A stretch of DNA of 45,868 nt from Clostridia bacterium (lineage in GTDB: Bacteria > Bacillota > Clostridia > Christensenellales > Aristaeellaceae), in the NCBI GenBank assembly GCA_017552615.1, contig JAFZPI010000038.1, forward strand, positions 1 through 45,868. The letters run 5' to 3'. The translations under genes and the position numbers were made by a program. Below the pieces are notes generated by a model that worked only from the letters and a program-made list of their open reading frames with translations, ran no database searches and was not told the origin of the DNA. Shown piece after piece: positions 2,647-5,715 of the stretch. Within the stretch, counting starts at the first letter, position 1. Every line of letters starts with the position of its first letter.

Positions 2647-3579
<933 letters not shown>

Positions 3580-3614: not shown

Positions 3615-4898
3615 TTATGCGAGGGCCGTAAAGCCCTTCTCGAGGTCCGCGATGATGTCGTCGATGTGTTCGGTGCCGATGGAGAGGCGGATCGTGTTGG
3701 GGCGGATGCCCTGATCCAGCAGTTCCTCCTCCGAGAGCTGGCTGTGGGTGGTGGAGGCCGGGTGGATGACCAGACTCTTCACGTCCGCCACATTGGCCAG
3801 GAGGGAGAAGATCTGCAGCGCGTCGATGAACTTCCAGGCCTCGGCCTGGCCGCCCTTGATCTCAAAGGTGAAGATGGACGCGCCGCCATTGGGGAAGTAC
3901 CGCTTGTACACTTCGTGGTCTGGGTGGTCCGGCAGGGAGGGGTGGTTGACCTTTTCGACCAGGGGATGGTTGGCGAGGTACTCGACCACTTTCTTGGTGT
4001 TCTCCGCGTGGCGGTCGAGCCGCAGGGAGAGGGTCTCGACGCCCTGCAGGAGCAGGAAGGCGTTGAAGGGGGAGATGGCCGCGCCGGTGTCCCGGAGGAG
4101 GATCGCGCGGATATAGGTCACGAAGGCCGCGGGGCCTACGACATCATAGAAGGACACGCCGTGGTAGCTGGGGTTCGGGGCCGCGATGTTCGGGTACTTG
4201 CCGCTGGCCTTCCAGTCGAACTTGCCGCTCTCGATGATGATGCCGCCAAGGGTCGTGCCGTGGCCGCCGATGAACTTGGTGGCGGAGTGGACCACGATGT
4301 CCGCGCCGTGCTCAAAGGGGCGGATCCAGTAAGGGGTGCCGAAGGTGTTGTCAATCACCAGGGGCAGGCCGTACTTGTGGGCGATGGCCGCGACGGCGTC
4401 GATGTCCGGGATGTCGCTGTTGGGGTTTCCGAGGGTTTCAAGGTAGATGGCCCGGGTATTCTCCCGGATCGCGCCTTCGACTTCCTCAAGGTTGTGGGCA
4501 TCCACGAAGGTGGTATCGATTCCGTACTGGGGCAGGGTGTGGCTGAGCAGGTTGAAGCTGCCGCCGTAGATCGTCTTCTGGGCCACGACGTGGCCGCCGT
4601 TGGCCGCCAGGGCTTGGATCGTGTAGGTGATGGCCGCCGCGCCGGACGCCACGGCCAGGGCTGCGCTGCCGCCTTCCAGGGCCGCGAGGCGCTTTTCGAG
4701 CACATCCTGGGTGGAGTTCGTCAGACGGCCGTAGATGTTGCCGGGATCGGCGAGGCCGAAGCGGTCGGCGGCGTGCTGGCTGTTATGGAACACATAGGAT
4801 GTGGTCTGGTAGATCGGGACGGCGCGGGCGTCGGTGGCGGGGTCGGCCTGCTCCTGGCCGACGTGGAGCTGCAGGGTTTCAAACTTGTATTCGCTCAT
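3615..4898 (-). CDS. metY: O-acetylhomoserine sulfhydrylase (MetY-type, Cys/Met metabolism PLP enzyme)
   Basis: A 427-residue fold-type I PLP enzyme. It contains the Cys/Met metabolism signature with the PLP lysine at about Lys208 in '[10 protein letters not shown]', an N-terminal 'ETLQLHVGQ' and the Arg-rich C-terminal '[14 protein letters not shown]'. Length and the long central insert ('[14 protein letters not shown]') fit O-acetylhomoserine sulfhydrylase, which makes homocysteine from O-acetylhomoserine and sulfide, rather than the shorter cystathionine gamma-synthase. AAGGAG precedes the start by 10 bases. It is first in the operon with cysK and lies behind a leader carrying a cysteine-containing ORF and an intrinsic terminator, so it should be switched on when cysteine is short. 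Confidence 0.9.
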
Positions 4899-4934
4899 GG
4901 TTCACAATCTCCTTCTTTATTGCGGTATCGGGGC

Positions 4935-4969
4935 AAAACAAAAACCGGGGCTATTCTGAAAGCTCCCGG
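4935..4969 (-). terminator. Intrinsic terminator inside the metY leader (attenuator)
   Basis: Read on the minus strand, CCGGG, a bulged A and GCT (4969-4961) pair with AGC and CCCGG (4952-4945) around an 8-base loop, followed directly by TTTTTGTTTT (4944-4935). This is a full intrinsic terminator standing 28 bases after the leader ORF stop and 36 bases before the metY start codon. Its 5' arm can pair instead with an upstream segment at 5060-5073. Confidence 0.75.
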
Positions 4970-5073
4970 GCAAATGGCACGCGGTATCGCGATGCATCAC
5001 CGACATCGAACCGCAGGGCGGCGGACAGACGCGCAGCCGAACGCCCCAGCCATATTGCATGCCCGGGAGATTT
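4959..5073 (-). promoter_or_regulatory. Antiterminator pairing in the metY leader
   Basis: Minus-strand AAATCTCCCGGGCA (5073-5060), inside the leader ORF, is complementary at 13 of 15 positions to the terminator 5' arm and flank TTGCCCGGGAGCTTT (4973-4959). Pairing them would leave the 3' arm of the terminator unpaired. The upstream segment begins 7 bases after tandem TGT TGT codons, so a ribosome waiting there would leave it mostly exposed. Confidence 0.65.
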
Positions 5074-5125
5074 GCATTCGACAACACATGGCGCCGCTGT
5101 TACGGACAATGGCGGAATCAAACAT
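4997..5125 (-). CDS. Cysteine-containing leader peptide of the metY-cysK operon
   Basis: A 42-codon ORF with an excellent AAGGAGG site 8 bases before its ATG, beginning about 37 bases downstream of the predicted transcription start. It encodes five cysteines (positions 14, 15, 23, 31, 41), with tandem TGT TGT codons at 5086-5081. It ends 28 bases before an intrinsic terminator, which is followed by metY. The layout is that of a ribosome-mediated attenuator: stalling at codons 14/15 when cysteinyl-tRNA is scarce would free the antiterminator arm and let polymerase read into metY-cysK. The peptide itself shows no known domain. The order promoter, ribosome binding site, Cys codons, arm and terminator is seen in the sequence; the regulatory behaviour is inferred. 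Confidence 0.7.
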   Translation of the reverse strand: MFDSAIVRNSGAMCCRMQISRACNMAGAFGCASVRRPAVRCR

Positions 5126-5168
5126 CCTGCGCGCCTCCTTCGGTGAGATCGTTCCTGAGAACACGGCC

Positions 5169-5197
5169 ATCCTAACACGATTCACCTACTATGTCAA
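5169..5197 (-). promoter_or_regulatory. Sigma-A promoter of metY-cysK
   Basis: On the minus strand, TTGACA (5197-5192), a 17-base spacer and TAGGAT (5174-5169). Transcription should start near 5162, just upstream of the leader ORF ribosome binding site. Confidence 0.75.
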
Positions 5198-5205
5198 TAG
5201 GCGAA
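5181..5205. promoter_or_regulatory. Dyad operator over the metY -35 region (candidate Rrf2 site)
   Basis: A 25-base dyad with half-sites TTCACCTACT and, on the other strand, TTCGCCTATT (8 of 10 identical), covering the -35 hexamer of the metY promoter. The CCTAYT core recurs in a second dyad over the divergent regulator's promoter at 5254-5278. The length suits an Rrf2-family dimer. The regulator is encoded next door, so this is its likeliest target. Confidence 0.5.
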
Positions 5206-5246
5206 AACAAAATCGATTGTTTTCCGTTTGTATTTTGGGTTCTGTC

Positions 5247-5304: not shown

Positions 5305-5715
5305 ATGATTTCAACCAGGGGCCGGTACGCATTGCGGGTGATGATCGACCTGGCCGAACACGCGGGCGACGGCTGGATCCCGCTCAAAGATATCGCGGCC
5401 CGGCAGGAGATTTCCAAGAAGTATCTTGAGATCATTGTTCGTGACCTGGTATCCGACGGGCTGCTGGTCGGCGCGAGCGGCAAGGGAGGCGGATACAAAC
5501 TATGCCGCGCACCGGAAGACTACACTGTGGGCGAGATTTTGGAAAGAATGGAAGGTACGCTCTCTTCCGTGGCCTGCCTCGCAGATCCGGATTATGTCTG
5601 CCCGAGAAAAGAGTTCTGTCAGACCCTGCCGATGTGGACGGAGTTTGACGGGATGGTCAGAGATTTCTTTTATGGGAAGAAGCTCAGCAACCTGGTGAAA
5701 AAGCAGAACAGGTGA
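5305..5715 (+). CDS. Rrf2-family transcriptional regulator, possible Fe-S or cysteine sensor
   Basis: A 136-residue winged-helix regulator of the Rrf2 family (IscR/CymR relatives): 'MISTRGRYALRVMIDLAEH' opening, recognition helix region around residues 35-52, and a wing 'GKGGGYKL' at 59-66. Cysteines 91, 99 and 105 form C-x7-C-x5-C, close to the C-x5-C-x5-C cluster-binding set of IscR, so an iron-sulfur cluster is plausible; Cys67 is also present. Its position divergent from metY-cysK points to a CymR-like role in sulfur control. The gene has its own promoter with an overlapping dyad and is followed 15 bases later by an AraC-type gene. An IscR role is less likely because no isc/suf genes are nearby. 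Confidence 0.88.
   Translation: MISTRGRYALRVMIDLAEHAGDGWIPLKDIAARQEISKKYLEIIVRDLVSDGLLVGASGKGGGYKLCRAPEDYTVGEILERMEGTLSSVACLADPDYVCPRKEFCQTLPMWTEFDGMVRDFFYGKKLSNLVKKQNR

Follow-up and report, generated by a model that had tools for sequence, protein, structure and literature searches.

What does the leader RNA ahead of a metY-cysK operon in Clostridia do, and which residue does it respond to? The operon lies on contig JAFZPI010000038.1 of a Clostridia bacterium (Christensenellales, Aristaeellaceae; assembly GCA_017552615.1), of which positions 1 to 45,868, the whole stretch analysed and hereafter the window, had been given an initial annotation that read the leader as a counterpart of the trp attenuator with cysteine as the sensed residue. 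Comparison with homologous leaders makes it very probable, in our judgement, that this leader is a ribosome-mediated transcription attenuator reporting charged tRNA-Cys. The homologues retain the Cys codons, the arm pairing and the terminator, and the mechanism first proposed is largely supported; at the level of sequence the comparison shows conserved in-frame Cys codons, mutually exclusive helices with compensatory changes, a terminator and targets in sulfur amino acid metabolism.

The leader is read on the minus strand, where every element named by the initial annotation, from the promoter to the last Cys codon, was found. The promoter TTGACA-17-TAGGAT (5169..5197; read directly as TTGACA at 5197-5192, a 17-nt spacer and TAGGAT at 5174-5169) matches the consensus at 10 of 12 positions with a TG preceding its second hexamer, and a promoter scan of 4 kb gave four promoter-like sites against a shuffle mean of 1.2. 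It is followed by the Shine-Dalgarno (SD) sequence AAGGAGG (5134..5140) and by a leader open reading frame (ORF) of 42 codons (4997..5125), taken from the ORF list and the leader comparison, whose peptide MFDSAIVRNSGAMCCRMQISRACNMAGAFGCASVRRPAVRCR carries Cys at residues 14, 15, 23, 31 and 41. The tandem codons TGT TGT of Cys14 and Cys15 (5081..5086), the putative sensor, precede the conserved codons CGA ATG of Arg16 and Met17 (5075..5080) and then arm 1, CTCCCGGGCA (5060..5069), the 5' strand of helix P1. Its 3' strand, arm 2, TGCCCGGGAG (4963..4972), overlaps the 5' arm of the terminator, and between the two arms folding and pairing statistics place the 5' strands of P2, ATGGC (5049..5053), and of P3, GGGGCG (5042..5047; partner 5020-5015 in the window fold), together with the P2 3' strand GCCAT (4974..4978). 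The bulged stem and U-tract described ahead of metY are likewise present: the hairpin CCGGGAGCTTTCAGAATAGCCCCGG (4945..4969), located by a terminator finder, has eight pairs with one bulged A at -12.7 kcal/mol and runs into the U-tract TTTTTGTTTT (4935..4944), and a simple terminator scan of the window did not list it. The complementarity of the arms, earlier counted as 13 of 15 positions with 4973-4959, is real with a slightly different count: 5073-5060 and 4972-4959 form 13 pairs out of 14, the exception being T5070 opposite C4962, around an unbroken 10-bp core, 5069-5060 : 4972-4963. By fold energy the leader is ordinary (z -0.64), and this measure alone gives no signal; the element stands above chance because it is conserved across relatives, not because of its single-sequence fold energy. 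NCBIfam returned no family for the four leader peptides put to it.

The family was collected from a MetY protein scan, which gave 80 metY loci from relatives. Alignment A1 comprises 26 rows, namely 24 of these loci, the window and one genus-mate, selected by the pattern CGAATG then CCCGG, so that its rows hold CGA-ATG by construction; L082 and L092 were excluded because no second arm was found. RNAalifold returned a single helix on A1, that of arm 1 with arm 2. Because the covariance model R1 built from A1 includes the TGTTGTCGAATG columns, its matches could be biased towards Cys codons. R1 matched 29 of the 80 metY relatives (24 being its own training rows), one site in the window's own genome, and, in family f47, 81 of 115 genomes, where two or more copies are common and one genome has five; three phylum matches beyond the window's class again precede metY, with the peptides NACCCRM, AAWVCRM and KLCCCCRM. 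A1, the R1 matches and 80 fetched f47 regions (mostly lower-scoring, from among the matches listed, further f47 matches existing) gave 148 distinct leaders, after four identical leaders had been merged and two others removed, L138 and L109, which repeats the window; the R1-positive metY loci L088, L065, L051, L086 and L092 stand outside this set.

With codons numbered from the Arg of CGA-ATG as 0, all 148 leaders have at least one Cys in codons -4 to -1. Cys occupies -2 in 141 and -1 in 133 of them and is in tandem in 127; CGA stands at 0 in 139, being replaced by TGT in seven, with ATG at +1 in 142 and Met at -3 in 125. The 122 leaders outside the A1 rows behave alike (any Cys 122, tandem 110, CGA 113, ATG 116). 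In the leaders Cys makes up 11.1% of residues and Met 11.3%, whereas seven coding sequences of the window have 1.0% and 2.4%; the leader Cys codons are TGT rather than TGC by 472 to 101, the reverse of the 4 to 23 in those seven sequences. The peptide ends in Arg-Cys-stop in 79 leaders. A start at SD spacing was found in 130 leaders and not in the other 18; in 122 of the 130 the first such start shares its frame with the Cys codons. Thus a short SD-led ORF ahead of the operon and clustered codons for the end product, both features of an attenuator, are found here, the second in the 148 leaders as well as in the held-out leaders that follow.

A second covariance model, R2, was built from the A1 rows trimmed after CGAATG and contains neither the Cys codons nor CGA-ATG. 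In family f31 it matched 46 of 397 genomes, spread over 42 of 334 genera, and in family f64 6 of 148 genomes; 34 matches were read, 30 of them f31 loci and four of the six f64 loci, the remaining two (G153 and G381) already belonging to the leader set. L244 and L245 are identical to the training rows L078 and L090 and were removed, which left 32 held out; besides these two, no match that was read is 90% alike over 120 nt to any leader of the set. All 32 have a Cys codon upstream, in tandem in 23, and 29 have CGAATG; L255 and L257, near contig ends, both carry TGT TGT CGA ATG. Homologous leaders lacking the Cys codons or the alternative pairing, which the initial annotation had named as evidence that would speak against it, were sought in two collections, and Cys was present in 148 of 148 and 32 of 32, the arms showed compensatory changes, and a terminator was located in 140 of the 148. 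The predicted attenuator family recurs in Clostridia of many genera.

The terminators were placed by an independent finder, which located a hairpin in those 140 leaders, two of them mis-picked. The pairing and fold counts cover 138 leaders, omitting L106 and L197, where the wrong hairpin was taken, and the eight leaders without a found terminator; in these counts the cores of L143 and L153 are set 12 and 15 nt too far upstream, the codon counts using the correct places. For the helix statistics, 63 leaders were aligned (A2). P1 is paired in 99.2% of cells, and at columns 31/178 G-C becomes A-U in six leaders, compensated in all six, as it does at columns 29/180 in one. P2 (ATGGC:GCCAT) is paired in 87.7% of cells with two-sided changes at four of five pairs, and P3 in 76.7% with such changes at four of six. 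No shuffle among 500 matched the whole structure in cells paired, in two-sided pairs and cells or in covariation score, and 31 of 500 equalled it in number of pair types; structures slid along the alignment are paired in at most 53.3% of cells, against 90.1% for the true structure, and none reaches its covariation score. In the held-out leaders, where arm 2 was taken as the best-pairing 9-mer downstream, a choice that favours pairing, nine of nine G-to-A changes in arm 1 face U in arm 2, C-to-T changes yield G-U pairs, and unpaired positions occur in L260, L262, L269 and L273. Matched arms reach -20.8 kcal/mol against -18.4 for permuted arms in the 138 leaders, and -17.3 against -14.3 kcal/mol in 63 non-canonical deduplicated leaders, with 0 of 1000 permutations as good in each case, in a test that ignores shared ancestry. 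We regard a predicted antiterminator of three helices, P1 to P3, as supported by the compensatory changes; it contains, in P1, the single arm pair first taken for the antiterminator and is larger than it, and it is mutually exclusive with the terminator, with covariation, as is the case in attenuators.

We propose that under cysteine shortage the ribosome would wait at Cys14 and Cys15, covering the RNA to about CGA-ATG, and that arm 1 would stay free. Free arm 1 would then pair with arm 2 as this emerges from RNA polymerase, in P1 backed by P2 and P3, and with this pairing formed the terminator would be blocked and metY-cysK transcribed. When Cys-tRNA is plentiful, the ribosome would advance onto arm 1, arm 2 would pair with the 3' arm of the terminator, and transcription would stop at the U-tract. 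From this arrangement we infer the direction of the response, its kinetics and cysteine as the physiological signal. The proposal was modelled by masked folding, with the ribosome as a 30-nt mask and the RNA ending just past arm 2. In the window the probability of the arm 1-arm 2 pairing is 0.89, 0.98 and 0.92 with the A site at codon -3, Cys14 and Cys15, 0.24 at CGA, and at most 0.01 at codons -8 to -4 and +1 to +11; it is 0.51 at +12, at least 0.97 at +13 to +15 and 0.00 at the stop codon, and without a ribosome arm 1 is held by the fold. The pairing forms in 97% of the 138 leaders at -2, 96% at -1, 84% at +1, 25% at +2 and 1% at +7. Since the masked folds lose the pairing beyond them, the Cys codons are approximately the last halt positions that would leave arm 1 free. 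If only the RNA past the ribosome is folded, arm 1 of the window also pairs for halts as early as -8.

Several results weigh against this reading. In the complete window leader at equilibrium the terminator has a probability of 0.97-0.99 in all ribosome states, so the leader folding that had been suggested as a check gives a divided answer: with RNA ending past arm 2 the modelled fold switches at the Cys codons, a stall freeing the arm and passage covering it, and with the full-length leader at equilibrium there is no switch. Across the 138 complete leaders the terminator forms with a probability of 0.55-0.58 when the ribosome is at the Cys codons, 0.66 without one and 0.93 when it is at +2. 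In the masked folds ending past arm 2, with the ribosome absent or at the stop codon, the arm pairing is possible in 83% of the 138 leaders. The structure slid by +3 has more two-sided cells than the true one (38 against 35), and the slides by -3 and +3 have 31 and 29 pair types against its 27. The neglect of ancestry in the arm permutations belongs here as well. A protector hairpin, CGAAUGC:GCGUUCGGC, forms strongly when the window is folded but lacks the support of covariation across the family, with 71.3% of cells paired, the same as in shuffles. R1 matched, own genome counted in each case, only 2 of 12 genomes in the window's genus, 13 of 391 in its class and 5 of 398 in its phylum. Finally, most genus-mate metY genes have a different leader, of the '-R-M-' kind, and the predicted attenuator is not the genus's general control of metY. 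Because the terminator prevails at equilibrium on the full window leader, the switch must be kinetic, and because the antiterminator is also allowed without a ribosome or at the stop codon, the off state would depend on timing and not simply follow from the absence of translation. In the model the decision must rest on the position of the ribosome as arm 2 emerges.

The Cys codons proposed as the sensor are conserved, but in view of the Met codons that flank them cysteine may not be the sole residue sensed. The leaders for thr and ilv sense several amino acids. It is quite conceivable, although we incline slightly to the other side, that the M-C-C-R-M block stalls ribosomes whenever either charged tRNA is short, which would make the leader a joint sensor of Cys and Met. 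The Met content and the Met positions at -3 and +1 given above favour it, as do other metY leaders in which Met and Cys alternate (MRMCMCQMCMC in L008, MCMRM in L120 and L122), the presence of MetQ, MetN and metY among the targets, and target proteins poor in both residues. With the A site on the ATG at +1 the great majority of leaders retain the arm pairing in the masked fold and the window retains about six arm pairs in the downstream-only fold, whereas its own masked fold there gives 0.00. Met has only one codon, so that conservation of the codon and of the RNA letters are indistinguishable, and relatives that lack the element have a metY just as poor in the two residues; both points count against a joint sensor.

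The codon CGA introduces a further reading, in which a nascent peptide ending in ...R-M arrests the ribosome and the Cys codons are secondary. Wherever codon 0 encodes Arg it is CGA, in 139 of 139 cases (26 by construction), and so is the Arg codon of the terminal Arg-Cys-stop in 78 of 79; CGA makes up 60 of the 247 other leader Arg codons (arm codon +5 omitted) and, in 121 downstream ORFs, 24 of 1129. CGA-ATG is also common in metY leaders that R1 does not match: an SD-led ORF with in-frame CGA-ATG is present in 22% of 51 such loci, where shuffles give 1% and none of 100 attains the observed share, and in five of seven genus-mate metY loci, some of these leaders reading -NFRxGRM or -SRNRM and several having an immediate stop. 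CGA-ATG is thus kept not only for the attenuator, as a peptide arrest would lead one to expect. This alternative seems to us improbable, given that Cys takes the place of Arg in seven of the 148 leaders, that the preceding residues are variable, and that the invariance of CGA points to decoding rather than to peptide chemistry. In the accessible part of the study of the Salmonella his leader assay (PMC4046918), CGA is described as poorly read, with a high degree of stalling, and by analogy we infer that CGA may be decoded slowly and so keep the ribosome next to the sensor codons.

Leaders of this second kind precede metY at L003-L007 and L013 (genus-mates), L030, L042, L054, L063, L095, L100 and L103, that of L003 being read by eye. 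A search for the NFRxGRM pattern in 299 phylum genomes was abandoned, giving three matches against one in the reversed control, and L157-L159 are unlike leaders of sulfur genes. At L008 and L067, also before metY, Met and Cys codons alternate or are massed (MVTRFQMRMCMCQMCMC... and ...MCSNRMCCCRIGSCRMCCCDMCNDC..., respectively), and L067 has no R1 match. Tentatively, and with rather less confidence than for joint sensing as such, we suggest a Firmicutes family that senses charged tRNA-Cys and tRNA-Met through M-C-C-R-M, in which the rare and poorly decoded CGA would be a built-in brake, used again in the CGA-TGT before the stop, synonymous codons would be part of the sensor, and the arm-less '-R-M-' leaders would represent an older or sister form.

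It is slightly less probable still than peptide arrest that the P1-P3 fold is a riboswitch-like RNA, sensing a metabolite or a protein, with the ORF incidental to it. The arm letters are nearly invariant, and arm 1 is retained as CCCGGGC in another reading frame, for example in L193 (LKFPGN), so that the RNA letters appear to be selected as such. Against this reading stand the starts in frame with the Cys codons (122 of 130) and the Cys codons themselves, in all 148 leaders and in all 32 held-out matches of the codon-free model. Rfam 15 likewise speaks against it: at gathering score nothing in the window is matched, and when 4890-5220 is searched up to E 10 the one match is an MS2 hairpin on the opposite strand (E 2.2). 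Control by the promoter alone, through an Rrf2-type repressor and with the leader a decayed or constitutive terminator, has in its favour an upstream dyad in 124 of 148 leaders and the divergent Rrf2 gene adjoining metY, and is very improbable since it leaves the Cys codons, their frame, the compensatory changes and the terminator unexplained.

A translated attenuator of charged tRNA-Cys has several relatives among described systems. The trp and his attenuators of enterobacteria consist of a leader ORF, clustered sensor codons and a mutually exclusive antiterminator and terminator. The window family shares with them the leader ORF, the sensor codons and the exclusive helices, and differs in the residue sensed, the P2/P3 extension, the conserved CGA codons and a protector hairpin that is unsupported family-wide. 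In Gram-positive bacteria the control of sulfur amino acid genes has been described mostly as T-boxes and riboswitches, and a T-box reads the tRNA directly, without translation. Mycobacterial polycysteine ORFs are, as reportedly set out by Canestrari in 2020, leaderless and described as translation attenuation; the leader ORF of the window is SD-led, unlike these.

The nearest described system that we found, as far as the accessible text of the report extends, is uORFC-8-2 of cysS in Rhodobacterales (PMC8632094), a predicted ribosome-mediated attenuator whose Cys codons stand in tandem, most often at 14 and 15, and whose U run is consistent with an intrinsic terminator. In uORFC-8-2 the Cys codons lie within the first stem, whereas in the window they lie 5' of P1-P3; furthermore, the window family is dominated by UGU, has CGA-ATG after the Cys codons, and precedes biosynthesis and uptake genes such as metY-cysK, in contrast to cysS. 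The novelty claimed earlier therefore stands in part: an intrinsic-terminator Cys attenuator had already been predicted, and for Clostridia no description of a Cys leader-peptide attenuator was found in the open-access literature, the search extending to neither subscription papers nor supplements. The word cysteine was not found in the accessible portions of two surveys of bacterial non-coding RNA (PMC11109978, PMC6429828). The polycysteine leaders of Actinobacteria, mycobacteria among them, also have Cys codons in a leader ORF before cysteine genes and, in the available part of their description, no conserved terminator-like hairpins (PMC1262725), whereas the window family has an intrinsic terminator. 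Cys T-boxes of Clostridium, used by Clostridium perfringens according to the accessible text (PMC2940859), are alike in terminating transcription prematurely before cysteine genes in response to cysteine; their specifier is TGC, and the window has no Rfam T-box match at gathering score or, over 4890-5220, up to E 10. Few leader peptides were known in Firmicutes, as stated in the part available of one report (PMC2965389); the His leader peptides of bacilli in that report and the Leu-rich ilvD leader of Staphylococcus aureus (PMC5794164, likewise seen in part) are, by description, leader-peptide attenuation in Firmicutes for other amino acids. Judged on the sequences, the features that are new here are the near-invariant CGA beside the sensor codons, the flanking Met codons and the dyad over the -35 box. 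The family is also a natural data set for asking if the sensitivity of an attenuator depends on which synonymous codons it uses.

Sorted by the first downstream gene that could be recognised, the 148 leaders precede metY in 41 cases (26 by construction, 15 found), a cystathionine lyase/synthase-like (CGL/CGS-like) gene in 51 and MetQ/NlpA in 35, followed by iron-containing alcohol dehydrogenase (6), MetN (3), ABC permease (2) and cysK (1), with nine unassigned, counting L167, whose contig ends early. Five unassigned targets were read, four being LysR-type regulators and one a glutamate-cysteine ligase family 2 gene; one LysR-type and one ligase target were put to Pfam, and representatives of the other targets to Pfam and NCBIfam. 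After the 34 R2 matches the first such gene is metY in 21, MetQ in seven, ABC permease in two, cysK in one and unassigned in three. One translated Cys sensor would thus cover metY, cystathionine enzymes, uptake of Met and amino acids, a LysR regulator and a glutamate-cysteine ligase-family gene. At f47 loci including L116, L118 and L119, MetQ is followed by a gene for an iron-containing alcohol dehydrogenase (PF00465 in L116, the locus tested).

In the window metY (3615..4898, minus strand; O-acetylhomoserine sulfhydrylase, TIGR01326, 427 aa) has no Cys and one Met, and cysK (2647..3579, minus strand; cysteine synthase A, TIGR01139, 310 aa) no Cys and five Met; both are, by composition, sulfur-sparing proteins. 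Target proteins contain 0.23% Cys and 0.77% Met; in flank ORFs, a control whose upstream part may contain some antisense ORFs, the values are 1.16% and 2.67%. The poverty of metY in sulfur was discarded as support for the element: as it is equal in relatives without the element, it supports the role of the target and not the leader.

The dyad CCTATTGACATAGTAGG (5185..5201, minus strand) overlaps the -35 box of the window promoter and encloses TTGACA, and is likely to be an operator of the Rrf2/CymR type. Dyads of the form CCTA...TAGG occur at most 260 nt upstream of the core in the 124 leaders mentioned, 72 being identical to that of the window. Because the dyad lies upstream and a divergent Rrf2-family gene (5305..5715, plus strand; PF02082) stands beside metY, repression and attenuation probably act together. 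Outside the Clostridia, L106 of Atopobacter sp. AH10 (Bacilli, Lactobacillales) carries the element with a longer stretch between the arms, possibly by horizontal transfer together with metY.
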